NCBI RefSeq assembly: GCF_964204865.1
Contig: NC_135263.1
Coordinates: 17,467,426-17,531,425 of the forward strand
Direction of reading: 5' to 3'
DNA: 64,000 nt
Origin: Styela clava
Lineage: Eukaryota; Chordata; Ascidiacea; Stolidobranchia; Styelidae
The position numbers and the translations under genes were made by a program. Positions 1,589-37,300 of this stretch are shown here, piece by piece. The notes under the pieces were generated by a model. It was given only the letters and a program-made list of their open reading frames with translations, had not been told where the DNA came from and did no database searches. Position 1 is the first letter of the stretch. Each line of letters opens with the position of its first letter.

Positions 1589-1606
1589 GGGTGGAGATCA
1601 AAAAGG

Positions 1607-1760
1607 TAGTTTAACCTCGAATCGGAGTTTAACTTTGGATCGGTGGTTTAAATCCGGATCAAAAAGGTGGTTTAACTTTCTGTGACGTAAATCTCGACTT
1701 AAAATCGGCGATTTTTTAAACCTGGTCTGGAGGTGGTTTAACTGGGTTTTCTACGCGTGC
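1607..1760. repeat. Subterminal TTTAAC motif cluster of the Harbinger element
   Basis: Just inside the left terminal repeat the motif GTGGTTTAAC or close variants (GTAGTTTAAC, GAGTTTAACT, GTGGTTTAAA) recur five times. The right end (about 7680-7790) carries similar GTTAAAC/TTTAAC words in both orientations. Repeated subterminal words are typical binding sites for the Myb-like protein or transposase; that role is inferred. Confidence 0.55.
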
Positions 1761-2179
1761 ACTGACTGGGTATTTGTTAGATGGGCTAATGTAGCGCTGG
1801 TCAGAGAGGTCTGGGAGCGATATATAGGTGCAGTACCGTACCGGTACTGGCGACGTTGATTAGGTGCGGTCGTTGCGGGATGGGTGGTTCATGCACTGCA
1901 GGCAGCGGTAACTTCTGCGTACCGTACGGATATCAACAGCATATATTCTGGTTTCAAATAGGTTATCAATATATATATATTTATATGGGACATTCCAAGC
2001 AAAAGTTGAATTCCCTCAATTTTTTAAAAAGTTGTAAAGTATTGTATTGTAAAGTGGGTAATTGTTTGATATATTTTTTATCAAAAGACATTTGAATGTT
2101 AGTGGAATGCATTCATTTCACAGAAAAATTTAAAATTTCATCCAGGTTTTTGATGATTTACACAAAGTGATCTGAAATA

Positions 2180-2625
2180 TAGAAATTTTGGGTCTCCGGA
2201 AGTACTCGCCCTCAAGTACTTCTAGTGGGTGTAGCATAACGATTTTATTAGTATAATATTTGTAACGACGATTTGAGTACGTCATCCAAAAATTACATCA
2301 CTGAAACGTCACAATCACGTCGTAGAGCTTGCTGAGGTATAACTATAATCGTCCGAAATGGCATCTGTGCCGACTATAATGAACTCACTAAAGTCAGCGT
2401 TTACTCTCTTATCAGTATCGTTTCTACGAGAAATAGCTTGCTCGATTTCGGATGATTGTCTGCACGACCAGCCATACCTATACTTTGGTGAGCCGTATTA
2501 CGCCACTGCGACTTCACAGTAATGTAATTTTTGGATGAAATAGTCCGGTGGGGGTTAGGAATGACATATGCAAAAATTGTTGAGCCAGGCCAACTAGAAA
2601 TAGGTACTTGCGGTGACCCGAAATT
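2180..2625. mobile_element. MITE with long imperfect inverted ends
   Basis: The left end (from about 2182, AAATTTTGGGTCTCCGGAAG) is matched in reverse complement by the right end near 2590-2625 (reads back as AAATTTCGGGTCACCGCAAG). A second inverted pair lies inside: CATCCAAAAATTACATCACT at 2283-2302 against its complement at about 2518-2538. No protein is encoded. The end words resemble the GAAGTATGYGYACC MITEs found near 41160, 42981, 48748 and 52802. Exact borders and target duplication were not resolved. Confidence 0.6.
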
Positions 2626-2762
2626 TAATATATTCAACATGTTTTGTGATGAATCCTGAACTGAAGTGTTTTGATTGCCTGGTACAGTTATTTCATTTCA
2701 ATGGGATGCACTCACCACTGAATTTAAGTTTATAAAGCTCGGATGTCTGCAATGCTGTAGGT

Positions 2763-3079
2763 CACAGTGGTCGGCAACCACCGGGCCGCGGCCCATCGCC
2801 GGTCTGCAGAAAGGTGACACAAAAAACGTACGATGCCCTAATACAGTAATAGCATTGTTTCCTTTATGTGAGGTCAGGTTTTCAAAATTGACAACTACAA
2901 AAACGAAATATCGAAGTAGGCCTAGCGTAAGAAACACATTACATGAATAGTATCACCTTTGTTATTGAATGTATTGTAAAACTACATTTTCTAATGTATA
3001 TAATTTGTATAGAGGTGGTCCGCTAAAATTTTGGTCAAGCTTTACCAGTCCGTCACTGAAAAACGGTTGCCGACCACTG
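2763..3079. mobile_element. Non-autonomous hAT MITE (CAGTGGTCGGCAACC family)
   Basis: The left end CAGTGGTCGGCAACC (from 2765) and right end GGTTGCCGACCACTG (to 3079) are inverted copies. The flanks CTGTAGGT (2755-2762) and CTGTAGGA (3080-3087) agree at seven of eight bases, as expected for hAT insertion, with two extra bases at the left junction. The interior words CGGGCCGCGGCCCATCGCC and GTCTGCAGAAAGGTGACA are shared with the copy at 18815-19155. No coding capacity. Confidence 0.8.
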
Positions 3080-3219
3080 CTGTAGGACATGTCATCTCCT
3101 ATCTAACGATTTATTACCAAAATTCTAAGAGATGATAGAGAGTGCTGTCACTCAGTCACGTCCTATAAAGTCACATTCACATACATTGTGCCCCATTATT
3201 GGCATGGATATACAGTGTT

Positions 3220-3447
3220 ACATTAAGTTACTGCTAAGCGGTATGAATACGCTGCCACTGCATCTCTGATTTCTCTGCGTGGGTTCGCAGGTTCAATCCC
3301 ATGCAGGGATGATTATGTGAGAGAGGATTGCTGGACTCCTCGTCGCCGTTGGGTGGTTCACGTAACCGCTGGTCGGTTACAGCTTCCTCCACCATCAAGT
3401 CCATCCTTCCGAAAACAATCCCATACCCGACTTGGACCATCGCAGCA
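3220..3447 (+). mobile_element. tRNA-derived SINE, 3'-truncated copy
   Basis: Contains the tRNA-like head (GCTAAGCGGTATGAATACGC, then TGGGTTCGCAGGTTCAATCC as a degenerate B box) and the shared body (GGTGGTTCACGTAACCGCTG, then CATACCCGACTTGGACC). The family recurs at 11799-12140, 16146-16219 with 23156-23246, 31582-31689 with 36272-36510, and 38776-39110. This copy lacks the common tail ending in CGGGATAAATATG. Confidence 0.75.
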
Positions 3448-3736
3448 ATTTACATTATAACACAGTGAAACGTTAATATATGGTGGATTTGCTGTCCTGT
3501 AGAGTCACGCTATATTTTAATATATATTTTATATCCTCTAAGTAAGTCTTTTTTGTAAGTTTTGTGCAATTTTGTTTCAACCCCATAAAAAAACAACTGA
3601 TTGGAGATTAACACAAGACATGCAGCTGGAAAAGTAAAAATATATTGCATCTAACAACATGCATGCAAAATCACTTGGAATAGCCCATATAGTTATATCT
3701 TATACTCATATATTAAATACATTACAGTGTTATATA

Positions 3737-6140
3737 ATGGCAAGATCAGCAAATTTTGTATTAGCGGAAAAAAATGTTCTCGTACAGCTCATAAGTGAAC
3801 ATCCTGAGGTGGAGTGCAAAAAAACGGACAAGGTGTCAGTTGAACAAAAGAATTTGGCTTGGAAGCAAATCGAAGCCAAATTCAATGCAACTGGCACCTT
3901 GTGTCGCAGAACTGAGAAAAACTTGAAAGTTGCGTGGAAAAATATAAAAAATAAGGCCAAGCAGGACAATGCTCAGAGGAAACGTCATTTAAGGGGGACT
4001 GGAGGTGGTCCTGATCTGCCTTGCGATGAGTTAAGTGAGAAAGTGGAGGGTATGTTATCTGCATTTTTCACATATTTGTAGATCTGTTTCAAATATGATG
4101 TGTTGATTGATACAACATATATATCTTGTGACTATGAATGCATATCATCAAATGTACCTACTAATTTTCCTCAATTGTGTTTAACTATTTTCTCTATTCA
4201 GACTTGATTTGCTTTAATTATCAAATTGTTTTTCAGCTCTAATTCCAAGGCAGATCAATTGTCTCACGAACAACTTTGACGATGACTATCAAAGTCAAAG
4301 CTCATACTCACCACCTGAAGAAGAGACATGTATGTTATTAACAGTTTATATTTACTGCCAGTAATTGGTGGCATTAAAGTAATATGGCACCACAATATAT
4401 AACCGATTTTAGTTTCTTATGCCCCCTGAAATACTAGTTCTGCTTCTCTCTGTATTCATGAAATGCATTTTGTGTACGTATGGTTGCAAAATTTACTGCT
4501 GCTTGGATATTCGTAGTTTCCACATAAATTTAATAATGTCTGTTTATAATTTCATTAACCAGCCTTTTTCGATATCAATGAGCAGATATTTACCGGTAAT
4601 CATTTTGTAATATATATGCAACAAGGATATCTGCAGTGCCTAAAACGAATTCTTCATTTGTTGTGTCACTATCTACAACTTAACTGGTGAAATAGTGATA
4701 TTGTATAATTGAGATTCCCAATTTCTTTTCGCTTTCCAGACACACTTGTCCCAGTAGCGGAGGAGTTGTCATCTTCCTCAGCTGGTAAGTTCAATCATCA
4801 AAAAAATATTACTAAGATCCGCAATATAGGACTAAATTTGATAAGGCTCAATGAACTAGTGCAGGGATGGCCTGACTTTTTTAATGAATAGGTATATATA
4901 CAGGGTGTCTCAGGAGTAAGTGTACACTTTTAATTTTTATTTGCTTTTCAGGTATTCATCATAGATCGTTCATTTCTTCAGAAAATATAGTATGGATAGC
5001 TAGTAAAATTTAGGTATTGTTTGTATTTTCTTCAAACCACAGAATGAAATGGAGATTAACCCAAAGAAAAAGGTGCAATTTATGCAATTCATCGTAAGTT
5101 TATGGAAATTGGATATGTAGTTGATGCATAAGGATGAGGAAGACCAAGGATGGGATGCTCCTAGGAAAACACTCAGTGCTTTATGGATGCTTCTTGCCTA
5201 ACAGCAATTTGTACCTCATTTTTGGGTTAATCTCCTTGTCATTATGTGGGTTGATGAAAATGCAAACAATACCTTTCACTAGTAGTTATCCATACTATGT
5301 TTCCTGAAGAAATGAATGATCTATGATAAGCTGGAAAGCAAATTAAAATTGAAAGTGTATACTTTTTTTTGAGACGCCCTGTATATGTATTTGTTAAGGA
5401 GAAGGACTGTGGGTCATATAATCAATATCTGCTTGAGTGAGAAACTTGCTTTTTTGTAATTTAAGGCTTTATTCATGGCAGAGGCGACTTTCGATACTCA
5501 ATTTTGACGGTTGACTAATGATTTGAGGTCTAGTACCGAGAATTGTATTTCATTTTACTTTTGTTGTTTTTCAGGTCAAAAATCAACAGTTTTGCAAAAG
5601 ACATCTGAAGTTGCAAGTACAGGTATTCTAGTGATAATTGCCATTCAGATGCAACATATATCCCACTTGGGCAAGACTCTCTGTTTGTTCAGAACATATG
5701 GATAGTTTATTCACATGATTATGATGTTCCCGTCCCTGCGATGTATGTTTTAAAAATACTTTCATGATATAGTAGCTCAGCAGTAGCAACTTGACAACTT
5801 ACTCAGATAAACAGAACAGCAGTATTATTGAAAGTTTAAGCCGTATTCAATTCAAGAACTGTTTTTATTGCAAATATTGACAGAAGTAGCTTAAACGCAG
5901 GCAGGCAGGCATTCAATTTGAGAGCAATATTAGTTTAGTTATCATGTCATGATAGAAAATATCAGTAGCGGCATCATAACATTATTTCTAGATAGACAGT
6001 GTGGCAACACAATGGAAGACTTGAAAAGAAGGGTTTTAACAGAGAAATTGGAGGCAATGGTTGAGGAGAGGATAATGAGAAGGGAGGAGCATGTCATAAA
6101 AATGGAGTATTACCGAAAAAAAATAGCAATGTTGGAATGA
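3737..6140 (+). CDS. Harbinger Myb/SANT-like DNA-binding protein, five exons
   Basis: Exons 3737-4049, 4237-4329, 4740-4784, 5575-5622 and 5992-6140 join in phase 1 at all four junctions. Donors are GTATGT, GTATGT, GTAAGT and GTATTC; each acceptor is a clear pyrimidine-AG, except the last (TTTCTAG). The product is 215 aa. Residues about 5-95 form the Myb/SANT-like trihelix seen in MSANTD-type and Harbinger-encoded proteins: conserved aromatic spacing (NLAWKQIEAKFN, LKVAWKNIKNKAK) followed by a basic tail. The C terminus (EKLEAMVEERIMRREEHVIK) is a charged helix, probably a coiled coil. In studied Harbinger elements this protein binds subterminal sites and helps the transposase enter the nucleus and reach the ends; that role is transferred by family. 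The start is the ATG at 3737, upstream of the domain; a longer in-frame start at 3659 is possible. A poly(A) signal lies at 6378. Confidence 0.8.
4901..5381. mobile_element. Mariner-like MITE with about 135-bp inverted arms
   Basis: CAGGGTGTCTCAGGAGTAAG at the left is matched in reverse complement by the right end (reads back as CAGGGCGTCTCAAAAAAAAG). Similarity continues about 135 bases inward on both sides (for example GCTTTTCAGGTATTCATCAT against GCTTTCCAGCTTATCATAGA). TA dinucleotides flank both ends (4899-4900, 5382-5383), as for Tc1/mariner insertions. It lies in an intron of the Harbinger Myb-like gene. No transposase remains. Confidence 0.75.
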
Positions 6141-6377
6141 AGCAGTTTTTTTCATTGTTTTATTTGTTCTTGTTGCAAAATGGTGAATTAAAACATTTCT
6201 TTGATAATAGATTATTGTTAAAAAATATTTGGTGGGTATGTCAGTGCTGATATTATATTTTCTAATAGTTTCTTGTAAAGTCTTTCTAAGTTTTAGGAGT
6301 TGTATCCCACAATGAAATGTGTGTCTTGTCGCTATTATCCAAAACGGAGTGTGACCTTGTTGGAACATATTAGCAAT

Positions 6378-6383
6378 AATAAA
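6378..6383 (+). terminator. Poly(A) signal of the Myb-like gene
   Basis: AATAAA lies 238 bases after the stop at 6138-6140, in the gap between the two converging Harbinger genes. Confidence 0.5.
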
Positions 6384-6442
6384 ATCAATGTTAACAGTTT
6401 ACTAAGCAGGAATTGAAAATTGGTAAATAACTAGGAGAGTGG

Positions 6443-7486
6443 TCAAAAATATTGGTCAATAACGTTTGCGCGAGCTTGATGACCTGCTTGAGATGACTGT
6501 ACTTGGTGACTTTGGTGTGTGTCATCACGTGTGTCTACAAAAGCATCTTGTTCCAGGGATTGGTTTGTTTTGACAGCAAAATTATGCAGACAAGCAACTG
6601 CCACAATTATGGTTAGCGTGTTGTCCAGCCTCGTCCTCATTTTGTATTGAAGTACTCTAAAACGTTGTTTTAAAATACCAAAGCACTGCTCAATTCTAGC
6701 TCTGGTGTGGATGTGGGCCTTGTTGTATCTATTTTGTTTGCCACTTGCAGGGTTCAAAAGAGGGGTTAACAAATACGGTTTGCAAGGGTAACCATTATCG
6801 CCTAATAAATAACCATTAATCCCGTTTTCCTCTAGTTTATCATGTATGATGCTATTTGCAAAGATCCTGGAGTCGTGTGTGGATCCAGGCCATCTTACGA
6901 CGATGTTGGTAATGACTCTGTTGGAATCGCATATAGCCTGAACATTTATAGAGAAGTATCCTTTTCGATTTCGAAATATCTCCGCGTCTTCGCCCCCTGG
7001 TGACTGAATTGCCACATGCGTGCAGTCAATAGCTCCAATAACCGACGGAAACCCAGCCACATCAAAAAAATCTTGTTTTACTTTAGACAAATCTTGACTG
7101 AAAAAATCAATAAATGTAGGCTTCCGTTTAGCGAAGCAAGTCGCAACTCTGTGAATGGATCTGCGTGCGGTATGTCGACTCATTCCCATCAAATCACCAT
7201 CTGTCATTTGAAAATGGCCACAGGCGAAAAACCGTAAAGTAGTTAGGAGTTGAAGCATAGGTGGGAGGGCATGCTTGCGAACAGTTATTTCGACATCGTT
7301 CTTTATTATATCGAATAAAATCAGTACACTATCCTTCGAAAATCTGTACCTTTGTATGAACTCCTTCTCATTAAACAGCCCAAACGGATCTTGCAAGTCA
7401 CGCAAATACGTTCTCAAAATCATCCCCTGTCTCCCCAGGCCCAATTCCTCTTCATCTACTATTTCCACAATGTCTATAACATCCAT
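6443..7486 (-). CDS. HARBI1-type PIF/Harbinger transposase
   Basis: Single-exon 347-aa frame starting at the ATG at 7486, the length of animal HARBI1-like proteins (about 350 aa). DDE nuclease signatures are intact: GAIDCTHV with Asp154, GSTHDSRIF with Asp205, GDNGYP with Asp230 and RIEQCFGILKQRFRVL with Glu266. The N-terminal part contains the helix-turn-helix-like segment common to the family (LLTTLRFFACGHFQMTDGDL). It would cut and paste the element at its terminal repeats in the nucleus, assisted by the Myb-like protein encoded convergently at 3737-6140. No stop or frameshift is visible. Domesticated HARBI1 genes look similar, but the matching inverted ends around this copy mark it as part of a transposon. 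Confidence 0.93.
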   Translation of the reverse strand: MDVIDIVEIVDEEELGLGRQGMILRTYLRDLQDPFGLFNEKEFIQRYRFSKDSVLILFDIIKNDVEITVRKHALPPMLQLLTTLRFFACGHFQMTDGDLMGMSRHTARRSIHRVATCFAKRKPTFIDFFSQDLSKVKQDFFDVAGFPSVIGAIDCTHVAIQSPGGEDAEIFRNRKGYFSINVQAICDSNRVITNIVVRWPGSTHDSRIFANSIIHDKLEENGINGYLLGDNGYPCKPYLLTPLLNPASGKQNRYNKAHIHTRARIEQCFGILKQRFRVLQYKMRTRLDNTLTIIVAVACLHNFAVKTNQSLEQDAFVDTRDDTHQSHQVQSSQAGHQARANVIDQYF

Positions 7487-7808
7487 TTTAAATTATTTCT
7501 AATCACAAAAATTACACGGCTTACAGATTTCACTTCTTCAATCACAGAAACAGCACAACACGCTCTGCAGCTAAATATGGAGTAACTGTTTACAAACGTA
7601 TCACTATGGAAATACAGGGTCAAAGGGCAATACGCCACGACGTTTTGGTAAAATGCCTCGTGGCATGGAAATTAAACCAGGATTAGTTAAGTAAACAGTA
7701 AACTAGGTTTTTGATCTCAGATTAAGTTTTAAAGTTAAACTGAGTTCAACAAATCCGGTATCAGTCTTAATCCAGATTTAACTTAAATGAGGTTTTTGAT
7801 CTCCACCC

Positions 7809-7985: not shown

Positions 7986-9048
7986 CAGTGGTTCTCAACC
8001 TTTTATGGCTCGTGGCCCCCTTCCGGAGGCTTTTTACACTCGTGCCCCCCTGTTCATCATTCCAAAAATCAGACGTGTTGGATTGTACTATGTATTTGCG
8101 ACCTTTTATAGAATGCAAAAACACAACACAGGCAAGAAAGTCAAAGCTTTTTATTAAACAATCAATGGGAATCTTTCCAGCGTGGTATCAGTGGATTCAT
8201 CGAGTTGAAGGCTGGCTTGAAGCTTACTTTGCTTGATTTCGGAGCAAACTTGTTGGCATACAACGGCTGCCATGTCATCAATACGTCGACGGATTGTACT
8301 ATTGGAAAGAGGAACTTGCTGCATATTTCTTTTTTCTTTGGGACCTATCAGCAGTTCCACCATTTTCTCCGCACATGGCTTGATAAGATCCTCGGCAATA
8401 GTGTGCGGCTTTTTGCACTTTGCGACACGATATGCCACTTCATAGCTGCATTCAAGAGCAGGATTTTCCTCCGGCAGAAACCCGAAATTTGTCAATGTTG
8501 CTTCCTTGTCGAATCTGACTCGCTTGGCAGCCAATGCACCAATATCAACGTCTTTTACATGGGGATGATTTTTGTCACGGTGGTTTTGGAGTTTGGATGG
8601 ACGTAATGATTCATTGCTCATTACATACGAGCAATACATGCATTGAGCACATTCTCTGTCATCTCGATTTACTTTGGTAAAGCCAAAGCCAACGTAGCTG
8701 TCGTTCCATTTTCGTATTTTGGGCATTAGGAATTTACATATAGGCTTCTGCGTTTATAATACGATACCGACGGTTAACTCGCAGCCTATTGAAACTGCCC
8801 GTCCGCAGGTTATACGGCCTGCCAGCGAACTATTCCGATTAGTAAATTCCATTATGATCAAACAATCCGCGCACGAGAAAGTGAATACACCTTGTGACCG
8901 GAAATAACCTATTCTGGTAATGAAACTGAAGTGAGCGGGGAATATTTATTTACATGGAATGTATGCAAACGAAGTCGCTTTATAACCAATTATTAGCCTT
9001 GTGTCGTGGCCCCCTCAGGGGGGCACCGGCCCCGATTGAGAACCACTG
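7986..9048. mobile_element. Deleted hAT transposon (CAGTGGTTCTCAACC ends)
   Basis: The left end CAGTGGTTCTCAACC (7986) and right end ATTGAGAACCACTG (to 9048) form the classic hAT terminal inverted repeat, each followed by a GGCCCC-rich subterminal word (CGTGGCCCCCTTCC; CGTGGCCCCCTCAGG). The interior encodes the first part of a transposase on minus. The 8-bp flanks (CAGAGACG and GTATAGAG) do not match, so the target duplication has decayed or the borders shifted. Confidence 0.85.
8154..8726 (-). pseudogene. hAT transposase fragment, ZBED/SCAND3-like N terminus
   Basis: An open frame of 190 codons from the ATG at 8726. Residues about 25-60 form a BED-type zinc finger (CAQCMYCSYVMSNE, then LRPSKLQNHRDKNHP: two Cys then two His). 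The middle matches the conserved region of ZBED5/SCAND3-type hAT proteins (SYEVAYRVAKCKKPHTIAED, then STIRRRIDDMA) and ends just after LQLDESTD, which carries the first catalytic Asp. Autonomous relatives are about 600 aa, so two thirds including the dimerisation region is missing. The frame is cut by the downstream deletion, which makes this a non-autonomous relic. Confidence 0.85.
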
Positions 9049-9149
9049 GTATAGAGGGTCAGAGGTTTCACTCAAAGTGACTTTTTATAGTCACTTTGGT
9101 TTCACTCAGACACATTCTCCGACGTAGTTATATGCCTTAGCTTGTTGGA

Positions 9150-9239
9150 AACAAAAAGGGCCTAGATCAATGGTTCCTAAATTTGTTGAGTCGCGCCCCT
9201 CTTTGAAAATCTTGCAAACTTAGCGCCCGCTATTTTGCT
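9150..9239 (+). mobile_element. hAT end fragment
   Basis: CAATGGTTCCTAAATTTGTT followed by GAGTCGCGCCCC resembles the left end and GC-rich subterminal part of a hAT MITE. No matching right end was found. Confidence 0.35.
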
Positions 9240-11229: not shown

Positions 11230-12757
11230 CAGATCTCAGTGTTCTACATCTCAATATAAGATCCCTGGGTAAATATGTGGATAACCTTGTTGAATTTATT
11301 ACTAAATTGTAATCCCTTCCTAAAATTATTGCGTTGAGCGAAACCAGGATAAGGAGGGATGCCACCGTTAATTACGTTGACATCCCTGGCTACACCTTTA
11401 TCCATGCGCCATCCCTAACTCAAGCGGGTGGTGTGGGTTTCTATATTAAAAATGGCATTAATTATCAAATAACGCAATATTTTGACTTAGTATTTAAAAA
11501 CTGTGAGGACATGTGAATCGAGCTGAAATGCTCTGTAAAAAACCCAAAGCCTTGTTATCGGTGTTATCTATAAGCATCCCGAGCGTAACATCCTATCCTT
11601 CACCGAAGCGATGTCTTCTCTATTCGAAAAGCTGGCATTGTCTAAAAAGCAATTCATAATTCTGGGTGACCCTAATATAAACCTCCTCAACACCCTCGAT
11701 ATCCCCACTTCCAAATACTGAGATAGGCTCACGTCCAATTTTGTACTCCCAATCATCATTAAACGCACAAGAGTTACTTCATCCTCCCACACGTTAATAG
11801 GATAGGATTTACATATTTATCCCGGGGGAGAGGAAAGCCGATATAACGGCATATCCATATGGCGAACCACGGCCTCTCGTCCGGTTACCATTCCAAGTCG
11901 GGTATGGGATTAGTTTTACTGTATTGTTTGTTTTCGGAAGCATGGACTTGGTGGTGGAGGAAGCCGTAACCGTCCAGCGGTTACGTGAACCACCCAACGA
12001 CGGCGAGGAGTCCAGCAATCCTCTTGCACATAACCATCCCTGCATGGGATTCGAACCTGCGAACCCACGAAGAGTAATTAGAGGTGCGGTGGCGAGCGTA
12101 TTCCTAACGCTTAGCCCGTTGAGCCACATCGCCGCGACACATTTACACCAACACCATAAAATTTTGCTCATCATCATTTATTATACTTTGTGATCTCACT
12201 GATCATTTTCCTATTATGTGTACCCTATCTTCAAGTCCAAACAAAAACACGCATGAAGCGTTATATGGCAAATTTTTCTGCTGACACATTCAGATTGGAA
12301 GTCAAGGTGATGTGTAACAATTATACCAGTGCTACTTTTTCAAAAGAAGATTTTAATAGCTCATTTGATCTCTTTCTTAGCCATTTTAAGTGGATAATGG
12401 ACAAACACGCACCATTACGCTCACTTACACGTAGAGAAAATAAATTATATTCTAAGCCATGGATTACCAGGGGAATTCAGAAGTCCATCAAACACAAAAA
12501 TAATATGTTCAAAAAAATGTTTCTGAGTGGCAATGGCAACGCATCACAGCGTCACCACTTCAATAAATACAAAAATATCTTGACACACTTGCTGAGGAAA
12601 TCGAAACAACAGTACTGCCATAATATTTTAGTCAACAACAAAGGCGATATCAAGCGCACATGGCAAACCATCAATGAGATTATCAAAATTAAGACAAGAG
12701 AGGACACAGCCATCTCAGAATTAAAACTGGAAAATAGTAGTACTGTGAGTATATGAT
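11230..12757 (+). pseudogene. LINE ORF2 relic: endonuclease and linker, split by a SINE
   Basis: The endonuclease domain begins LSVLHLNIRSL, continues IIALSETRIRRDA, GGVGFYIKNGINYQI, GVIYKHPERN and QFIILGDPNINLLNT; the last is the GDFN motif with F replaced by P. In-frame stops and a shift disrupt it near 11310 and 11510-11550. A SINE interrupts at 11799-12140. Beyond it a 188-codon frame (12190-12756) continues with the conserved linker: KHAPLRSLTRR, KPWITRGIQKSIKHKN and DIKRTWQTINEIIKI. Everything from the reverse transcriptase onward is missing: the sequence switches at about 12760 to an unrelated fragment. CR1/Jockey-like clade, inactive. Confidence 0.8.
11799..12140 (-). mobile_element. 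tRNA-derived SINE, near full length, inside a LINE relic
   Basis: Read on minus, the head contains TGGCTCAACGGG (12126-12115), a good RNA polymerase III A box, and GGTTCGAATCC (12058-12048), a perfect B box, with tRNA-like spacing. The body follows (GGTGGTTCACGTAACCGCTG) and the tail ends CCCGGGATAAATATG. It splits the LINE ORF2 relic and so inserted after that LINE copy. Best full-length reference for the family in this window. Confidence 0.88.
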
Positions 12758-14824: not shown

Positions 14825-15924
14825 CTAAAATAAGGAAGAAAATAATATTTGGAGCAGCATGATTTTAAAAATACCCCTAAATACTAACTAATACCTTGAA
14901 TACATAATGCATTTTATCTGATGTACTAAATGAGCGTATATATGCTCATTGCATGTTCTACAGTCCAGCAGTGTTTGCATACCATTACTAGACTATATCT
15001 ACACTAAATTTTGATATATCACAGTCTGAAATGTCCTATGACAGTATGAGTATGGACTATAGACTATATTTTGAAACATCAACTGTTTGTCTACAACTTC
15101 ATTTCTCACCTCTCAATCATTTCCAATGCTACCTTTCTTTCCACTCCGGCATAACTTATCATTGCTTCCCAGGTTCTTGTCGACTCTATGAATTTAGATT
15201 TAGACCAACCGACATTAGTAAAATTGATTAATTTCTTCTCTTTCACACGACCGTGCATTACAGAAACAGCCATTCATTTCTATTTCCAAATATGCTGTGG
15301 CCTATATAGTAGTATAAGTCTGCTGAATAGTCAAGAAGAGTCATTAAATTAATCATAAACATTTCATGCAAGCCAGAAAATATCGTTGTTTGTGACATAT
15401 TATTCTAGGTCTACCCTTCCTTGGAGTTACCGTACCGCACCGTACCTATTTAACAACGTCTTATGAGCTAGTGCTCATCTAAAATTGCTATTTATGGCAA
15501 GGATATACAAGTGTTTAATATCTTACCTATACTTTTCAACACCTCCTTAGAATAACTGGACTAATATTGCCGGTAACTGAAAAAAACTATGGAAAGGCTA
15601 CTCAACGCAAAAGCGAGCAGTTGAGTACATCTGATATTCATCCGACCACTGGGGATCCACCTACAGCTGACTAACTTGACTGTTACCCCGTGCAGAAGTC
15701 TGCGTTCATTGGCCCATGATACCGGAAAAGCAGAGAAAATAGGACAGATGGTAACACATATTTATTGTAGTAAAAGCGTCTTTTCTGTAAAACGTGCAAC
15801 TTTTGGAAGTGGGAACAAGGCAATATTTGTTACTAAATTTCTAAGGAACATTTTAAAATCATTTTCAGGTAGTTACCTGATGTGCGCTACGAAACTGAAA
15901 GATAAATGGCCTCGGCTCGCGGCC

Positions 15925-16145
15925 ATCGACATCGATAGCAGCCTTGGTGTATTTGGAGGTATACTTCCGCTTTGACTTGCTTAAATATTAAGTTAAAAAA
16001 ATTACTGATAGATTAGACTTAAAACTTAGGATTATGGCGATCAGCCGATCAGCGAAAACATGCTCGTTTCGTTTTAGGTGGGTAGGAACGGGCGATGTCT
16101 GAAAACAAGGGCCGGTAGCCCAATAAATGCCGTACAGCGAATGCA
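15925..16145. other. Unassigned spacer
   Basis: About 220 bases between the long-TIR element and a SINE tail. No feature recognised. Confidence 0.3.
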
Positions 16146-16219
16146 TAGGATAGGATTTACATATTTATCCCGGGGGAGAGGAAAGCCGATATAACGGCAT
16201 ATCCATATGGCGAACCACG
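16146..16219 (-). mobile_element. SINE tail, left part of a copy split by the Foldback element
   Basis: Matches the tail of the tRNA SINE in reverse (ATCCCGGGGGAGAGGAAAGC and the following CATATGGCGAACCACG). The rest of the same copy continues at 23156-23246 after the Foldback insertion; CGAACCACG is present on both sides. Confidence 0.85.
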
Positions 16220-16319
16220 GGACAACACTAAAAGGCTGAAGGAAGAAACGGATGAAGTGGAGGGAAAACGGAAGTTGAAGTGTTCCCAAAGGTGAAAAAT
16301 TAAAAAACACTAAAAGGCT

Positions 16320-17820
16320 GAACACTAAAAGGAAGAAATGGATGAAATTTCTTCCGACGGGTAGTTAGGTGGCTGAAGTCACTAAAAAGCTGAACACTAA
16401 AAGGAAGAGGTGGATGAAATTTCTTCCGACGAATAATGAGGTGGTTGAAGTCACTAAAAAGCTGAACACTAAAAGGAAGAAGTGGATGAAATTTCTTCCG
16501 ACGAATAATGAGGTGGTTGAAGTCACTAAAAAGCTGAACACTAAAAGGAAGAAGTGGATGAAATTATTTCCGACGAATAATGAGGTGGTTGAAGTCACTA
16601 AAAAGCTGAACACTAAAAAGAAGAAGTGGATGCAATTTCTTCCGACGAATAATGAGGTGGTTGAAGTCACTAAAAAGCTGAACACTAAAAGGAAGAAGTG
16701 GATGAAATTTCTTCCGACGAATAATGAGGTGGTTGAAGTCACTAAAAAGCTGAACACTAAAAAGAAGAAGTGGATGAAATTTCCTCCGACGAATAATGAG
16801 GTGGTTGAAGTCACTAAAAAGCTGAACACTAAAAGGAAGAAGTGGATGAAATTTCTTCCGACGAATAATGAGGTGGTTGAAGTCACTAAAAAGCTGAACA
16901 CTAAAAGGAAGAAGTGGATGAAATTTTTTCCGACGAATAATGAGGTGGTTGAAGTCACTAAAAAGCTGAACACTAAAAGGAAGAAGTGGATGAAATTTCT
17001 TCCGACGAATAATGATGTGGTTGAAGTCACTAAAAAGCTGAACACTAAAAGGAAGAAGTGGATGAAATTTCTTCCGACGAATAATGAGGTGGTTGAAGTC
17101 ACTAAAAAGCTGAACACTAAAAGGAAGAAGTGGATGAAATTTCTTCCGACGAATAATGAGGTGGTTGAAGTCACTAAAAAGCTGAACACTAAAAGAAAGA
17201 AGTGAATGAAATTTTTTCCGACGAATAATGAGGTGGTTGAAGTCACTAAAAAGCTGAACACTAAAAGGAAAAAGTGGATGAAATTTCTTCCGACGAATAA
17301 TGAGGTGGTTGAAGTCACTATAAAGCTGAACACTAAAAGGAAGAAGTGGATGAAATTTTTTCCGACGAATAATAAGGTGATTGACGTCACTAAAAAGCTG
17401 AACACTAAAAGGAAGGAGTGGATGAAATTTTTTTCGACGAATAATGAGGTGGTCGAAGTCACTAAAAAGCTGAACACTAAAAAGAAGAAGTGGATAAAAT
17501 TTATTCCGACGATTGATGAGGTGGTTGAAGTCACTAAAAAGCTGAACACTAAAAGGGAGAAGTGGATAAAAAAATTTCCGACGAATGATGAGGTGGTTGA
17601 AGTCACTAAAAACTGTACACTAAAAGGAAGAAGTGAATAAAGTTTCTTCCGACGAATAATGAGGTGGTTGAAGTCACTAAAAAGATGAACAGTAAAAGGA
17701 AGAAGTGAATGAAATTTCTTCCGGCGAATAATGAGGTGGTTGAAGTCACTAAAAAGATGAACACTAAAAGGAAGAAGTGGATGAAATTTCTTCCGATGGA
17801 TAGTGAGGAATACTTGAAAA
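16320..17820 (+). repeat. 72-bp tandem repeat array, left arm of the Foldback element
   Basis: About 20 head-to-tail units of 72 bp, each starting GAGGTGGTTGAAGTCACTAA, continuing AAAGCTGAACACTAAAAGGA and ending TTTCTTCCGACGAATAAT. Units differ by single-base changes, and the inner edge (17560-17820) is more degenerate. The unit is a multiple of three without stops in one frame on each strand, so long frames run through it (24-residue period EVVEVTKKLNTKRKKWMKFL on plus; a 486-codon frame on minus). Replacement changes are as frequent as silent ones, so I do not call a gene. Confidence 0.95.
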
Positions 17821-17829
17821 TTCAATATA

Positions 17830-18806
17830 TTAGGAATTGGGTAATTTAATGTTTGTTCTGTTCGTATTTATGAGACAATGTCCTCGTGGATTCGTTTTTT
17901 GTTAATTTTTTATATGTTATGCTCAGTTCGAGCCTGGCGAATTGAAGGCCATGACATTCTCGTTATATTCTTTTTAATTTTGATGTAATGTGCAAACAAA
18001 TTAATATATATATATTTTCATATCTAGCTGTTCTAGATCAACAAACCTTGTAATTTATAATATGTTTGTGGCCCACCTCAAAATGCCTCTGAGGCTTACC
18101 AGTGGCCCATGGCCCATTGGTTGAGAACCAGTGGTCTAACAGGACTTCGATTTGACTAATACATCATTATTCAAAGTCTTCGTGCGTGAACTGCTTGCAA
18201 AATTTATAAAAACAGATATTAAGTTCAAGGAATGAAATACGGAATCAAAAATAAATTATATTCGGGCACAATATCACGGCAATCTATTATTAATCACGGC
18301 AATTATTATTAATTTTTTATTCCTATTTTCGTATTTACAAAATACAACGGCGATCCATGGACTTAAAATGTGTGGTAAACTGCCCGATTATAATTAATTC
18401 TTGATACATATTTTCGTATTTATAAAATAATAAAAGATATATATGCGGACATTGAAGTGCCCGAATATAAAAAAATCCATTCGTATTTACGTACTCACGA
18501 AAAAATTGTCGCAAGTCAGAAATATAATTTATACTTTATCCCGCTTTTTGGCAAATAATTTGGATAATGGTTGGTATTTAAAAGTATGGACTTTTACTAG
18601 GATGATTTTGTGTTGCGCAAAATGTTCAAATCTATGACCGATAGCACTATTTTAAATGCTTGCCGTATTAATTTAATTCTGATAACGTAACTCATGGTAT
18701 ATAAAAATATATCGCAGTAATCTGCAAACATGAAATGCATGGTAATATAGTCATGTTGTAGATAACAGTTATTCCATTGTTTATTGTATGCAAATTCCTT
18801 CATATA
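17830..18806. other. Foldback interior, left part; includes a hAT end fragment
   Basis: AT-rich sequence with no convincing coding region. At 18065-18135 the words GTGGCCCACCTC, GGCCCATGGCCCATTGG and TTGAGAACCAGTGG form the right end of a hAT MITE; no left end was found. Confidence 0.5.
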
Positions 18807-18814
18807 CTATAGAT

Positions 18815-19155
18815 CAGTAGTCGGCAACCACCGGGCCGCGGCCCATCGCCGGTCTGCGGAAAGGTCACTACCGGTCCGCAGAAAGGTGACATGAAAACGT
18901 ACAATGCCATTGTTATCTTCATGTGAGGTTGGGTTTTTAAAATGGCAATTACAAAAACGAAAGATCGAAGTGGGTTTAACGTAAGAAATACGTTACGTGA
19001 ATAGTATCACCTTCGTTTTTGAATGTATTGTCAACATACATTTTCTAACGCATATTATTTATTACATTAGATTAGTTCGTTTGTATAAAGGTGGTCCGCC
19101 AAAATTTTGGTCAGGCTTTACCGGTCCGTTACTGAAAAAAGGTTGCCGGCCACTG
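18815..19155. mobile_element. hAT MITE with perfect 8-bp target duplication
   Basis: Ends CAGTAGTCGGCAACC and GGTTGCCGGCCACTG are inverted. The flanks are both CTATAGAT (18807-18814 and 19156-19163). It shares its interior with the copy at 2763-3079, except for an extra repeat of the GGTCTGCGGAAAGGT word. Confidence 0.92.
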
Positions 19156-19163
19156 CTATAGAT

Positions 19164-20958
19164 CATTGATTTTCAACCGGTGTTCCGCGGAACACCGGTG
19201 TTCCGCGGGAGACCTCCGGGTGTTCCGCAGAAAATTGTTTTTTTTTTGCAGTATTATGACGTCATAACTGATATTTAACCGTCCGATGGATTTATATAAA
19301 TTTCACAAAGCGCGGTTCACAACCGCTTCCAATCTTGCTATCATTTTCCACTACCTATCTTTGCGAAATGACTTTTTAAGCATGGCCGGTCTAGGGCTGT
19401 GCAAAATATTCGAATAGCGAATACAATATTAAAATATTCGAATGCCATTTTACTATTCGTATGTACAATACCACATAATCTGTACCGCTTTGCTTGGGCA
19501 CGGAATTCACGCCGGTAAATCGATCGCTTGGATTACGCGAGAATTCACCCTCGGCTTCCACTGTTATTATGCAAAAATCGTGCCGACACTAGTCCGTAAA
19601 TGTAGAAACGTCAACACAAATAAGATATCTAAAATAAAGTTACCAGATTTTAAAGATGTTATTAGCCTCCGCATGCATGACCCGAATAGAAAATCATTTT
19701 CGGAAATTAAGAGTTACAAAGACGTTTTTTTTGGAGTGTTGAATTTGCAAATTCCGTAAATAAAATTTCCCGGTGACGATATTAGCTATGATATTGGTCG
19801 GGGTATTGATTTGTTGTAAAATAAATGGTGACTTGAGGTGATTAATTATAATTAGCGTCTTCCCTTCTACTAGGTACGAAAAGCACTTGGGCACAAAATT
19901 GTTTACAATTTTTTTGGTATCAGGTCGCGTATGTAAAATATCGTTCAAGAGTGCTGCCAAACGACAACGTAGAAATGCCTTTATTTCAGATTTTAAATCT
20001 TCACAGATTTAAGCTTCACAGATTTATCTAATCACAGTATCAAATTGATTTATTTCGAAAATAACACTGAGCCTAAGAAAGTCAATTGTCGTCTTAATAA
20101 TAAATGTGTGCATCCCGTTGACGATAATGATAATATTATTTGCTTGAAACTGGGACATTTAATTTGCAAACGGCGATAAGTTAGATCAGAGTCGGCGCAA
20201 AAGATAAATATCAGAATACAATTAATTTGGCTTTGAAATCACTCCTTAATGTCATTAAAATCTGTCGCTGATGTGAACTCATAGTTATATCAATAATATG
20301 AAACTTCGATCTCCGCCGACCCACGGGAATTAATAGTTGCGCAAAAGAACAAATGGCGGGAATTTAAAAACGTTCAGGGGGACAAAATATCAGCGCATAT
20401 GACGAAATTAACCAGTAAAAATCGCTTTGTTGCCGATTTTCAATGTTTCTATTGATTTCCAAATCTACCTCCGACGTTCTGGACCCTGCTGCGTATAAAA
20501 AATATTCGGTATTGGACTATTCGGTATTTGTTAAGAATATTCGAATTATTTGATTCGAAAAAAATATTCGATTTTGCCCACCCTTTTCTTGGCCGCCATA
20601 AGAGTATAAAAACACGAAAAATTGAGAGTCGTCGAGAAAGAGCTGCGTGTTTGTCTCTCTCAATTAAATTCCAGCCAGAATAAAAAATTGAAACTCATCG
20701 AAACAGGCCCAGATATTACATTAAAATACCATTTCTGTTCCTAGCTCATCGGTAGCTCTGAATCGGAATATGTGTAACGTCTTTTCCAGCTGAAGTTGAC
20801 AAGCTAATATTAAATCTCGTTAATTTATTTTTTTCCGAAATGATCGATGTCAGTTAATTGCATAATATAGTTTATTTCCAAAAATCTCATTTGGTGTTCC
20901 GTCACAATTTTAGAATAAAAAAAGTGTTTCGCGATACAAAAAAGGTTGAAAATCACTG
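19164..20958. mobile_element. hAT-like element (CATTGATTTTCAACC ends), split by another hAT
   Basis: The left end CATTGATTTTCAACCGGTGT and right end GGTTGAAAATCACTG are inverted, with the GTGTTCCGCGGAACACC-type subterminal words typical of this hAT group (also TGGTGTTCCGTCAC near 20893). The flanks do not match. A second hAT sits inside at 19389-20587. No transposase is recognisable. Confidence 0.7.
19389..20587. mobile_element. Nested hAT-like element with AATATTCGAA ends
   Basis: Left AGGGCTGTGCAAAATATTCG and right (reverse complement AAAAGGGTGGGCAAAATCG) are inverted, each followed by TATTCGAA words. The flanks CATGGCCG (19381-19388) and CTTGGCCG (20588-20595) agree at seven of eight. A 105-codon plus frame inside (19442-19759) has no recognisable domain. 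Confidence 0.65.
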
Positions 20959-20961
20959 GTG

Positions 20962-21012
20962 TACGAGGTTAGGGATCAGGTTGTGCGACATCTTGGTGCG
21001 CATACTTCAGTA
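20962..21012. mobile_element. Half of a palindromic MITE
   Basis: GGTTAGGGATCAGGTTGTGC followed by GACATCTTGGTGCGCATACT matches the right half of the palindromic MITE at 52802-52915. The left half is absent. Confidence 0.6.
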
Positions 21013-21500
21013 GTACCAATATTTCAATTTCAACGAAGTTTAAATTAAATTTCAATCAAAATTAAATGTTTTCTAGAAGTCGGTATCTGATCGTTTATCA
21101 AATCATGTCAAGGCGTACCATAACTTAGTCGCAGAGAAGGTGTGCTGTTGCATATTTTTAACAAAATTGCAACGAACTTTCGGGTATACGATCCATTTAA
21201 ATTTGCGTGTGATAGAAACTTAGGTCAGTCACTCAACTGACAGATTGAAGGAAATTAATTACCCACACAGCACGTCAGCATCTCGAGTGATGATCAGGGT
21301 GTGTTGCGCTGAACATGAAAATGAATGAAGGCAGATCAATAAAATTAATAAAGAAAAATTCATTTACATTCCCGTCTGGCAATTGGTGTTATTTGGAGTG
21401 TTTGTTTTTCTTCGCTAAACGGCTCTCTTTCTTTCGAAATGCGTAAATCAGATTCGAAAAAAATTACGATTTGAATCGATTCAATTCATAAATCTAAAAG
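21013..21500. other. Foldback interior, right part, nothing identified
   Basis: No coding or repeat feature recognised. The sequence passes into degenerate 72-bp repeat units from about 21590. Confidence 0.35.
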
Positions 21501-21649
21501 GGGCATGCCTACTCATCAGTCCGCTTTCAGGGTCTTCATCCAATCTCACTTCCGTCGGGATATGTTTTGGCTATTTAACTCTCCCAATGTTCGGTATTTT
21601 AGTGACTTCAACCGCCTCAAAATTGATAGGACAAAATATCATCTAACCC

Positions 21650-23060
21650 TAACGTACTTCTTCCTTATAGTGATTAGATTTTTAGTGACCTCAGCCACCT
21701 CACCACCCGTCGGAAGAAATTCCATCCACTTCTTTCTGTTAGTGTTCAGCTTTTCAGTGACCTCCGCCACCTCATTATCCGTCGGAAGAAATTTCATCCA
21801 TTTCTTCCTTTTAGTGTTCAGCTTTTTAGTGACTTCAACCACCTCATTATTCGTCGGAAGAAATTCATCAACTTCTTCCTTTTAGTGTTCAGCTTTTTAG
21901 TGACTTCAACCACCTCATTATTCGTCGGAAGAAATTTCATCCACTTCTTCTTTTTAGTGTTCAGCTTTTTAGTGACTTCAACCACCTCATTATTCGTCGG
22001 AAGAAATTTCATCAACTTCTTCCTTTTAGTGTTCAGCTTTTTAGTGACTTCAACCACCTCATTATTCGTCGGAAGAAATTTCATCAACTTCTTCCTTTTA
22101 GTGTTCAGCTTTTTAGTGACTTCAACCACCTCATTATTCGTCGGAAGAAATTTCATCAACTTCTTCCTTTTAGTGTTCAGCTTTTTAGTGACTTCAACCA
22201 CCTCATTATTCGTCGGAAGAAATTTCATCAACTTCTTCCTTTTAGTGTTCAGCTTTTTAGTGACTTCAACCACCTCATTATTTGTCGGAAGAAATTTCAT
22301 CAACTTCTTCCTTTTAGTGTTCAGCTTTTTAGTGACTTCAACCAGTGATTTCGACCACCTCATTATTCGTCGGAAAAAATTTCATCCACTTCTTCCTTTT
22401 AGTGTTCAGCTTTTTAGTGACGTCAATCACCTTATTATTCGTCGGAAAAAATTTCATCCACTTCTTCCTTTTAGTGTTCAGCTTTTTAGTGACTTCAACC
22501 ACCTCATTATTCGTCGGAAGAAATTTCATCCACTTCTTCTTTTTAGTGTTCAGCTTTTTAGTGACTTCAACCACCTCATTATTCGTCGGAAAATATTTCA
22601 TCCATCTCTTCCTTTTAGTGTTCAGCTTTTTAGTGACTTCAGCCACCTAACTACCCGTCGGAAGAAATTTCATCCATCTCTTCCTTTTAGTGTTCAGCTT
22701 TTTAGTGACTTCAGCCACCTAACTACCCGTCGGAAGAAATTTCATCCACTTCTTCCTTTTAGTGTTCAGCTTTTTAGTGACTTCAACCACCTCATTATTC
22801 GTCGGAAGAAATTTCATCCACTTCTTCTTTTTAGTGTTCAGCTTTTTAGTGACTTCAACCACCTCATTATTCGTCGGAAGAAATTTCATCCACTTCTTCC
22901 TTTTAGTGTTCAGCTTTTTAGTGACTTCAACCACCTCATTATTCGTCGGAAAATATTTCATCCACCTCTTCCTTTTAGTGTTCAGCTTTTTAGTGACTTC
23001 AGCCACCTAACTACCCGTCGGAAGAAATTTCATCCACTTCTTCCTTTTAGTGTTCAGCCT
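21650..23060 (-). repeat. 72-bp tandem repeat array, right arm of the Foldback element
   Basis: About 19 units, the reverse complement of the left-arm repeat. Units near 21700-21780 and at 22640, 22730 and 23010 carry the variant ACCCGTCGG (with GGGTAG on the other strand), which in the left arm occurs only at its outer edge. Near 22340 a small rearrangement (ACCAGTGATTTCGACC) shifts the register. The sub-array from 21840 to 22340 is very homogeneous, suggesting recent local expansion. Confidence 0.95.
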
Positions 23061-23155
23061 TTTAGTGTTCTTTAATTTTTCACCTTTGGGAACACTTCAA
23101 CTTCCGTTTTCCCTCCACTTCATCCGTTTCTTCCTTCAGCCTTTTAGTGTTGTCC

Positions 23156-23246
23156 CGAACCACGGCCTCTCGTCCGGTTACCATTCCAAGTCGGGTATGG
23201 GATTAGTTATACTGTATTGTTTGTTTTCGGAAGCATGGACTTGGTG
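23156..23246 (-). mobile_element. SINE body, right part of the copy split by the Foldback element
   Basis: Continues the SINE interrupted at 16219: CCACGGCCTCTCGTCCGGTT, then TCCAAGTCGGGTATGGGATT and GGAAGCATGGACTTGGTGG. The tRNA head is missing; the sequence changes abruptly at 23247. Confidence 0.85.
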
Positions 23247-34300: not shown

Positions 34301-37300
34301 CAAGACTTCTTGTTTAATCCATTTTATAGCACTGATAGCAGCAGGGATCAGAGCCTGCGTTAGGTCGGATTGGTGGAACATTGCGTTTTCTTTTGTAGTA
34401 CAGTATCTAAAATAAGGAAGAAAATAATATTTGGAGCAGCATGATTTTAAAAATACCCCTAAATACTAACTAATACCTTGAATACATAATGCATTTTATC
34501 TGATGTACTAAATGAGCGTATATATGCTCATTGCATGTTCTAAAGTCCAGCAGTGTTTGCATACCATTACTAGACTATATCTACACTAAATTTTGATATA
34601 TCACAGTCTGAAATGTCCTATGACAGTATGAGTATGGACTATAGACTATATTTTGAAACATCAACTGTTTGTCTACAACTTCATTTCTCACCTCTCAATC
34701 ATTTCCAATGCTACCTTTCTTTCCACTCCGGCATAACTTATCATTGCTTCCCAGGTTCTTGTCGACTCTATGAATTTAGATTTAGACCAACCGACATTAG
34801 TAAAATTGATTAATTTCTTCTCTTTCACACAACCGTGCATTACAGAAACAGCCATTCATTTCTATTTCCAAATATGCTGTGGCCTATATAGTAGTATAAG
34901 TCTGCTGAATAGTCAAGAAGAGTCATTAAATTAATCATAAACATTTCATGCAAGCCAGAAAATATCGTTGTTTGTGACATATTATTCTAGGTCTACCCTT
35001 CCTTGGAGTTACCGCACCGTACCGGTACCTATTTAACAACGTCTTATGAGCTAGTGCTCAACTAAAATTGCTATTTATGGCAAGGATATACAAGTGTTTA
35101 ATATCTTACCTATACTTTTCAACACCTCCTTAGAATAACTGGACTAATATTACCGGTAACTGAAAAAAACTATGGAAAGGCTACTCAACGCAAAAGCGAG
35201 CAGTTGAGTACATCTGATATTCATCCGACCACTGGGGATCCACCTACAGCTGACTAACTTGACTGTTACGTCGTGCAGAAGTCTGCGTTCATTGGCCCAT
35301 GATACCGGAAAAGCAGAGAAAATAGGACAGATGGTAACACATATTTATTGTAGTAAAAGCGTCTTTTCTGTAAAACGTGCAACTTTTGGAAGTGGGAACA
35401 AGGCAATATTTGTTACTAAATTTCTAAGGAACATTTTAAAATCATTTTCAGGTAGTTACCTGATGTGCGCTACGAAACTGAAAGATAAATGGCCTCGGCT
35501 TGCGGCCTAGGAGTTTCGATTTTAGCAGAAAATTACGTCAGTAGACACAGTAAATTAAGCCGAAAAGAAAAATATTTTTTTTCTACCCATCTACTGAAGC
35601 AAAAGTATTCATGCTCTAGATTTGATAGCGAAGCGGAGTGCATTACTTGTGGCTACAGTTGCTCGTTGCCAGGATTACCCGACCTTTGACCCCCGAAAAA
35701 TTCTTTCTATACTTTACCATTGCAAAATTTTCGGGACTATTTTGGGAGTAATTTTGCGAGTTGGCGCCTGTATGATGGAGTATGTGCTTCAAACCATCAT
35801 TTTATTCATCGCGTACGTCGTACAACAATAGGTTTTTTAAAAGTACCGGTAAATAATTTTAGCCTAGTCTATCACAGCTATTTCTACACTAATTTTTTAT
35901 CATTGCAATTAAATTAAAACTTCTAGGAAGACACCTAGACAAGAGTGATCATTGAATTATATGATTTATATTTAAGTTTCCGAAACACAACAGAAAACTA
36001 ACGAATAGAGGTAATGTTTACGACCACGCTTGAAAATCTGTCTGAGCAACGACACTTTTTGCATCTTGCTGATTGGCCAATGTCACGAAGTAAACAAGGA
36101 AGACGATGCTAGCGGAAAGGTCCATATTGCCGTCACATCGTCTATCGTCACTTAGATTTTTAATTGTGGAGAATTTAGTACATACATAATGTATATATCT
36201 CAGGCACGGTGTAATATTGTTCCACCAAACGATGTGTCCTCCTTTTAGGGGTTGGAAATATGGTCACCCTAGGATTGCTAGATTCCTTGCCGCTGTAGGG
36301 TGGTTGACGTAACCACTGGTTACGTTTTCCTCCACCTTCAAGTCTATGCATCTGAACACAAATAACTATGGCTAACTAATCCCATACCCGACATGGACTG
36401 GTAACCGGACGAGAAGCCGCGGTTCCTTATATAATTTAGCCGTATTATCGGCTTTCCTCTTTCTCGGGGTAAATATGCAAATTATATCCTATGTATGTAT
36501 ATACAATAACAAACACAATAGTACGTACGTGTGCATCGTAGCTTGACTTGTAATGTTTTAAATGAGACAGAAATCGCATCGCCATTGAACACCACTTATC
36601 GGCCTCTGTTATGTGTTCGCCTATGAATAATCTAGCCCCGACGTTCCAGGATTTGATAGTCAACCAAAGACACTCAAGTTCAGGATAGAATTTCTGAAAA
36701 TTAACAAACTGATAATAGACGAACATTTTTCTGCAGTAACACAATCAGAAAATTGGGAAAAAGTGAATAGTGGCGGGCCATGTAAGTGTGACGTAAAAAG
36801 TTACATTTTATGAACAATATTTACAGTGTTACAAAAGCAAAAGTGGAAAACAATAAGTCTCCTGCCAAAACCAAATTTAATCGCAATCTCAACAAATTCT
36901 TTGAGCTATTTTTAACTAAAACATAAAAATTTGATTTCATTCCGGTTGTGGCAGCATCAGGCGGGCCATACTGAATCACACAGCGGGTCGGATTTGGTCC
37001 GCGGGCCGTAGTTAGCCCATGTCAGTTCTAGACGCTACAAGTGATTGTAGATGTAATGAATTCATTATATATGCAGAAAAACAAAGAAAAATGTAATAGA
37101 AAAGTGAGCGACTCCTTGTGATGTAAACACAATCTCAAAAATGAGTTCCTGTTTACTGTTGGAGTTGCTGTAGTGTTGGACTAAAATATTCTCATTGTCT
37201 GCACCAATGATCATAGACATAATAGTGGCGTTGACAATTTTAGCTTGCCTTTAATTTTCCATCAACGAGTTCCAAGGCACTTCTGAAATAACTCAACGCT

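Follow-up and report, generated by a model that had tools for sequence, protein, structure and literature searches.

Within a stretch of 64,000 nucleotides from the ascidian Styela clava (contig NC_135263.1, positions 17,467,426 to 17,531,425 of the forward strand; hereafter the window), positions 16220-23155 hold a 6,936-bp transposable element bounded by the inverted ends GGACAAC (at 16220) and GTTGTCC (ending at 23155). Independent insertions with 9-bp target duplications, and the membership of this element in a family, are observed directly. The reading that we consider likely as a whole is that of a young, non-autonomous foldback transposon of the MULE group, which would be moved by the transposase of long relatives and whose arms, built from arrays of a 72-bp unit, would serve as docking sites for that enzyme. 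The family is probably close to Rehavkus. The parts of the element and its equivalent empty site are given below in window positions.

16211..16219, no strand: left 9-bp target site duplication CGAACCACG, from the sequence, identical to 23156-23164
16220..16307, plus strand: left terminus, non-repetitive, 88 bp, beginning GGACAACACTAAAAGG, from the comparison of the ends
16308..17808, plus strand: left arm, 72-bp unit in tandem, 20.9 copies, 94% matches
17809..21655, no strand: non-coding core of about 3.8 kb, common to other family copies, with older nested inserts inside
18815..19155, no strand: hAT-like non-autonomous insert within the core, with an inverted pair, flanked by CTATAGAT
21529..21592, no strand: right inner flank, 63 of 64 bases the same as at the matching place in the transposase-bearing element on contig C6
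21656..23067, minus strand: right arm, inverted 72-bp units, 19.4 copies, 87% matches
23068..23155, minus strand: right terminus, non-repetitive, inverted copy of the left one, from the comparison of the ends
23156..23164, no strand: right copy of the 9-bp target site duplication CGAACCACG, from the sequence
11797..11954, plus strand: short interspersed element (SINE) without interruption, equivalent of the empty insertion site, 99.4%

The left and right termini match at 98.9% over 90 bases, and the longest inverted match without gaps between the arms covers 814 nt at 96%. A preliminary description, made from the letters of the window, had recorded the inverted ends, arms of some 20 copies of a 72-bp repeat in opposite orientations and the 9-bp duplication, and was accurate in this. 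It had also stated that a SINE is cleanly split. The element did split a SINE on insertion: its flanks, joined and searched against the window, matched the uninterrupted copy at 11797-11954 over 158 bp at 99.4%, with a single CGAACCACG. In the core (17809-21655) no stop-to-stop frame of at least 120 codons was found, and an Rfam scan of the window gave nothing at gathering scores. The insert at 18815-19155 is bordered on both sides by CTATAGAT (18807-18814 and 19156-19163); its end motif and 8-bp duplication look hAT-like.

The genome searched comprised 376.6 Mb in 379 contigs. With the first 151 bases of the element as query 81 matches were obtained, and the best 40 of 345 candidates were scored; these 40 full-length ends come from 28 elements, that of the window among them, and the other 27 were fetched. 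Both ends were read in 25 elements, 24 of which have an exact 9-bp duplication, all 24 duplications being different; in the remaining one (L030) 8 of 9 bases match. This search had been proposed in the preliminary description, which would have given up its interpretation if no second locus had shown both ends with a duplicated target. Such loci exist in number, and the assignment to the foldback-type DNA transposons with 9-bp duplications stands. The three other elements (L033, L035 and L037) show a single end within the stretch fetched; their core is the same as the family's, and their longest listed frames either fall inside the arrays of the arms or start at the edge of the core and continue into an arm. 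A 29-bp terminal pattern with at most 2 mismatches was found at 139 places genome-wide, 66 forward and 73 reverse, and the reversed pattern, taken as a control, at 0 forward and 0 reverse. Among the 100 listed of these 139 places, 34 pairs of ends less than 20 kb apart were formed and 32 ends stayed unpaired, in part because 39 of the places lie outside the 100 listed; these counts suggest a family of about 70 copies.

An alignment of 20 cores (5 of the 25, namely L021, L036, L011, L014 and L024, were omitted) showed pairwise identities of 97.7-100% without gaps, and a tree of 21 cores, with 4 left out, was shallow, many of its forks being unresolved. The elements L010 (on C18) and L015 (on C5), whose duplications are not the same, are separated over about 6,970 bp by just 1 mismatch and one 7-bp indel, and a comparison of their 400-bp flanks showed no similarity; such near-identity in unrelated surroundings indicates that the family has moved very recently. 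None of the stop-to-stop frames in the 25 cores exceeds 153 codons. Further inserts or deletions are present in some copies, and L009, L010, L013, L015, L030 and L031, which cluster in the core tree, contain 572 bp of core that are absent from the window copy. No palindromic target preference was shown by the 24 duplications, in which 29 of 96 pairs are symmetric against 25.3 expected, a value reached in 1130 of 5000 random draws.

A search of the genome for the MULE domain gave 82 matches, just one of which is 20 kb or less from any of the 100 listed ends, being situated inside the end pair C6:23733200-23747723; the chance expectation of a MULE match inside the 34 end pairs is about 0.05. These coordinates delimit an element of 14,524 bp whose ends show 4 and 5 mismatches of 88 when compared with those of the window element, with a duplication, CCACATTCG/CCACATTTG, agreeing at 8 of 9 positions and with arms of 41 and 13 units. 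The unit consensus of the C6 element is that of the family at positions 1-23 and differs from it at positions 53, 54, 56, 57 and 72, to which the right arm adds 27 and 45. On its minus strand the core carries gene A, open over 1,013 codons, with Pfam matches to Peptidase_C48/Ulp1 (E 7.7e-10, above the cut-off), to MULE (E 0.02), to SWIM (E 0.036) and, at its C-terminus, to PHD (PF00628, E 0.0016, 18.9 bits vs a cut-off of 24), where a PHD-like Cys/His pattern is visible. Gene B lies head to head with gene A across about 1.9 kb in three overlapping frames; its MULE match (E 4e-8) is over the cut-off and its SWIM match (E 0.0094) below it. Over 305 positions of their catalytic parts, A and B share 45% identity, and the residues D259, D325 and E440 are common to gene A, gene B and the protein of the locus L038 described below, these three sequences having been aligned. 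The start regions of the two genes (C6 element 6562-6939 and 8855-9232, 378 bp) have 95% DNA identity, the catalytic parts about 64%, pointing to a recent conversion or exchange between the head-to-head genes.

The first 713 residues of gene A match 32 places in the genome. The only close match besides C6 itself is C8, 5470894-5472989 (96-98%), with gene B at 5474848-5476736 in the same head-to-head order as on C6, and both genes lie inside C8:5467964-5480993 (13.0 kb), the second-longest end pair listed. Outside the two long pairs the matches are 22-47% identical, those of about 47% being shorter than 50 residues. Both loci with this transposase (2 of 2) are thus enclosed by family ends and have a like order of the two genes. 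The C8 element is known from the match table and its end pair, and what is said here of arms, duplication and shared core refers to the C6 element. The preliminary description had called the window copy non-autonomous, with its partner elsewhere, and had suggested looking for full-length relatives with a transposase between the arms; the lack of a long frame in the window core agrees with this, and relatives of that kind were found in C6 and, by the match table, in C8.

A MULE transposase with SWIM, Ulp1 and PHD matches between the ends fits MULE and Rehavkus rather than Galileo, and the likeness to Galileo (P superfamily) that had been drawn is given up, the duplication also being of 9 and not 7 bp. 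No THAP domain was found in the Pfam scans of the C6 genes A and B (no genome-wide search for P transposases was made). The MULE superfamily has target duplications of 8-11 bp, which the 9 bp found here fit (PMC6446971). Its members mostly have G or C as the first three terminal bases (PMC13359780); in the terminal GGA of the present family this holds for 2 of 3.

Another MULE-type locus, L038 (G000:C10:8544600-8550600), was considered as the partner and ruled out, since the 6 kb that were read lack the 72-bp unit and the identity to gene A is 23% over 249 positions. Its gene (530-3505, open over 992 codons) encodes a Cys-rich N-terminus and matches the OTU protease (E 2.5e-6); 2.4 copies of a minisatellite with a 166-bp unit come after it. 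Long frames like it occur on C2, C4, C10, C13 and C19, which suggests a young family, perhaps Rehavkus-like.

The arms vary from 7 to 71 units, partial ones included, as counted in 49 of 50 arms (the right arm of L018, which carries an insertion, was excluded). The quietest 25-nt stretch of the unit comprises positions 71-72 and 1-23, with a mean variability of 0.015 vs 0.048. Unit and terminus have in common a segment of 15+18 nt in which 29 of 33 bases agree, namely CACTAAAA(A/G)GCTGAA, then, after 9 nucleotides present in the unit only, GGAAGAA..GGATGAA.T; when the 92-base end is aligned locally with the unit, the score is 35, and 500 shuffles gave at most 30. The quiet stretch overlaps this common segment. 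Since conservation within the unit is highest where it resembles the terminus, the arrays are probably docking sites of the transposase, CACTAAAAAGCTGAACACTAAAA being the candidate centre of such a site. For one Galileo, biochemical work showed further THAP-domain binding sites in the arm repeats (PMC3688188).

Homogenisation between the two arms of one element was not seen: the nearest-unit distance between them is 2.21 of 72, no smaller than the 2.03 between opposite arms of different elements, and the distance falls to 1.43 and 1.33 for same-side arms taken from different elements. The elements L029 and L032 have equal unit counts (47 and 11), and their left arms differ by 1.84%, their cores by 0.37%; 57 of the 62 left-arm differences are variants that occur at least 5 times in other elements, a pattern to be expected from conversion or exchange among units. 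For the GGAAGAA/TTCTTCC inverted repeat of the unit no clear covariation was found in 901 units, a standard pair being changed on both sides in 2 of them. In the right-arm consensus of the C6 element one pair of this repeat is changed on both sides.

The arrays had been taken for minisatellites in a protein frame, as if the arms encoded a repeat-rich protein or the C-terminal part of a transposase. The unit length of 72 is divisible by 3, and the arms are traversed by long open frames; in a 72-bp unit without a stop, an open frame simply repeats. Among 901 clean units, 256 of them distinct, the variant types seen at least 2 times (91 types) gave ratios of non-synonymous to synonymous changes of 2.03-3.79 in the six frames against 2.5-3.09 expected, which is near neutral; the slightly low value of frame -0 (2.03 vs 2.5) is the one that would suit coding arms. 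This count replaced an earlier one with biased unit cutting, whose ratios scattered from 1.51 to 6.22; frame +1 went from 6.22 to 2.79, so that such counts are noisy. Every frame is closed by stops in some of the units; for the three frames open in the consensus, this is so in 115, 71 and 9 of the 901. Exactly 72 bp was found in 922 of 1,156 units (the right arm of L018 included here), other lengths being 71, 73, 66, 69 and 85 bp, and the transposase frames of the C6 element end well before the arms. Coding arms were rejected as very improbable on the neutral-looking variants, the stops and the units off 72 bp, even if Rehavkus has been tabulated with 'minisatellite in Cterm' (PMC6446971). An assembly artefact, or a satellite folded back without transposition, was also weighed, long inverted arrays being in general error-prone in assembly. 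Twenty-four different exact duplications cannot be explained by such an artefact, nor does it suit the 97.7-100% identity of 20 cores or the uninterrupted SINE copy, and the probability left to it is negligible.

A more serious alternative is that the MULE gene pair is cargo, another transposon captured once in a foldback element, the family being moved by an unrelated and unseen transposase. The C6 and C8 copies, at 96-98%, are so alike that they may descend from a single event, and the state of the genes speaks for the same side: the His of the C-x2-H motif is replaced by Thr in gene A of C6, the other two aligned sequences having His, and gene B shows interruptions in C6 and in C8 that lie at different places and may be introns. 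Yet no convincing inverted ends of a separate MULE were seen around the pair in the C6 core, close copies of the genes were found nowhere but between foldback ends, and the 9-bp duplications suit a MULE enzyme (PMC6446971). Capture is, on balance, distinctly unlikely. The mobilization of the family by its own MULE-type transposase is preferred, with several observations, besides the state of the genes just given, that weigh against it. The MULE, SWIM and PHD scores of gene A are all under the Pfam cut-offs, gene A of C8 has a stop and an apparent frame break, and the C8 copy is absent from the matches of the MULE-domain search. Core matches between the C6 element and the non-autonomous copies are confined to the right inner flank and a few short stretches of repeat. 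The difference at position 72 of the C6 unit falls inside the conserved stretch, and permutation lends this stretch modest support, since an equally quiet one arose in 85 of 5000 trials when all units were used and in 225 of 5000 when they were limited to the distinct ones. Finally, the 28 elements examined are those with the best-scoring ends (40 of 345 candidates), so that the sample is biased towards young, well-preserved copies.

According to the preferred interpretation, the MULE-type transposase, supplied by the C6 and C8 long relatives or by better copies in other individuals, would move the elements by cut-and-paste, recognising the GGACAAC termini and inserting the element with a 9-bp staggered cut. 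The 72-bp arrays, related to the terminus, would act as extended docking sites, and would have grown and been shuffled within each arm by unequal exchange and conversion. The non-coding copies would have come to outnumber their source because they keep these sites. The working transposase may be A, open in C6 and with an odd motif, or B, with the usual motif and interrupted in C6 and C8 alike; other individuals may carry a better one. It is tempting to speculate on a two-protein system, in which B would be catalytic and A, with its deSUMOylating Ulp1 and chromatin-reading PHD matches and altered C-x2-H, would be its partner, both using the tandem docking sites of the arms, hundreds to thousands of bases long, as a common platform. 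This seems rather unlikely at present; if true, a foldback with a chromatin/SUMO arm and two divergently transcribed, long-diverged MULE paralogues would be at hand.

Foldbacks whose arms consist of repeats and whose duplications measure 8-10 bp are already known, Tetris and Tm1 among them. The Drosophila Foldback element (FB4/NOF), which belongs here from general knowledge, has tandem-repeat arms, 9-bp duplications and mostly non-autonomous copies; the comparison with it made in the preliminary description is right in kind (tandem-repeat arms, 9-bp duplications) and is one of general features. The family is new, as had been supposed, within this known foldback kind. Tetris of Drosophila virilis is likewise a non-autonomous foldback with a flanking domain and tandem repeats of about 220 bp in inverted arms, the repeats sharing 37 bp with the flanking domain and varying in number, with duplications of 8-10 bp (PMC4079207). 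It is represented by three complete copies, compared with 25 two-ended ones here, and the present unit is of 72 bp; no transposase was found for Tetris (PMC4079207), whereas here two long end pairs carry one.

Tm1 of Meloidogyne is similar in its composite tandem-repeat arms, mostly 9-bp duplications and many non-autonomous forms, together with a rare form that holds a MULE-type transposase (PMC3169594). Its repeats, however, are of about 14 bp with asymmetric outermost motifs, and its transposase is Phantom-like with FLYWCH, unlike the Ulp1-PHD tail and second, head-to-head gene of the present family (PMC3169594). Rehavkus has a 9-bp duplication, a PHD finger in the transposase and a minisatellite beside the terminal repeat (PMC6446971), and in Rehavkus-1_TC units of 164 bp lie in the inverted termini (PMC10218199). 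Hosts among arthropods or annelids count as a further trait of Rehavkus. In the present family the PHD match is weak and the 72-bp arrays begin 88 bp from the ends; it differs from Rehavkus in arms that are almost wholly minisatellite on both sides, in the Ulp1 match and in having two genes. Galileo shares long repetitive arms that change length independently, but has 7-bp duplications and a P-type transposase with THAP, against 9 bp and a MULE-type enzyme here (PMC3688188, PMC3573991). No foldback that combines a head-to-head pair of MULE paralogues with Ulp1 and PHD parts in one of them was found in the literature searched, outside which most subscription papers and Repbase lie.

It can be difficult to link a foldback family to its transposase, as with Tetris, and what moves such families and why their arms consist of repeat arrays are the questions at stake. 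With many very young copies, arms of 7-71 units, a near-identical pair at two sites and two transposase-bearing copies, the effect of array length on transposition and the binding of the repeat unit by the transposase become directly testable in this family. Long inverted arrays at some 70 chromosomal sites are, moreover, a possible source of rearrangement.

Other repeats were noted in the window. A Myb/SANT-like frame (3638-4081, plus strand) and a 349-codon DDE_Tnp_4 frame (6443-7492, minus strand) are presumably the usual two genes of a PIF/Harbinger transposon, spanning 3638-7492. Nearly the same open frame, starting VHLIFIRPLGIHLQLTNLTVT, occurs at 15625-15975 and 35208-35510; it is a repeat, one copy of which adjoins the foldback element. 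A satellite with a 195-bp unit occupies 57305-63366 in 31 copies with 94% matches.

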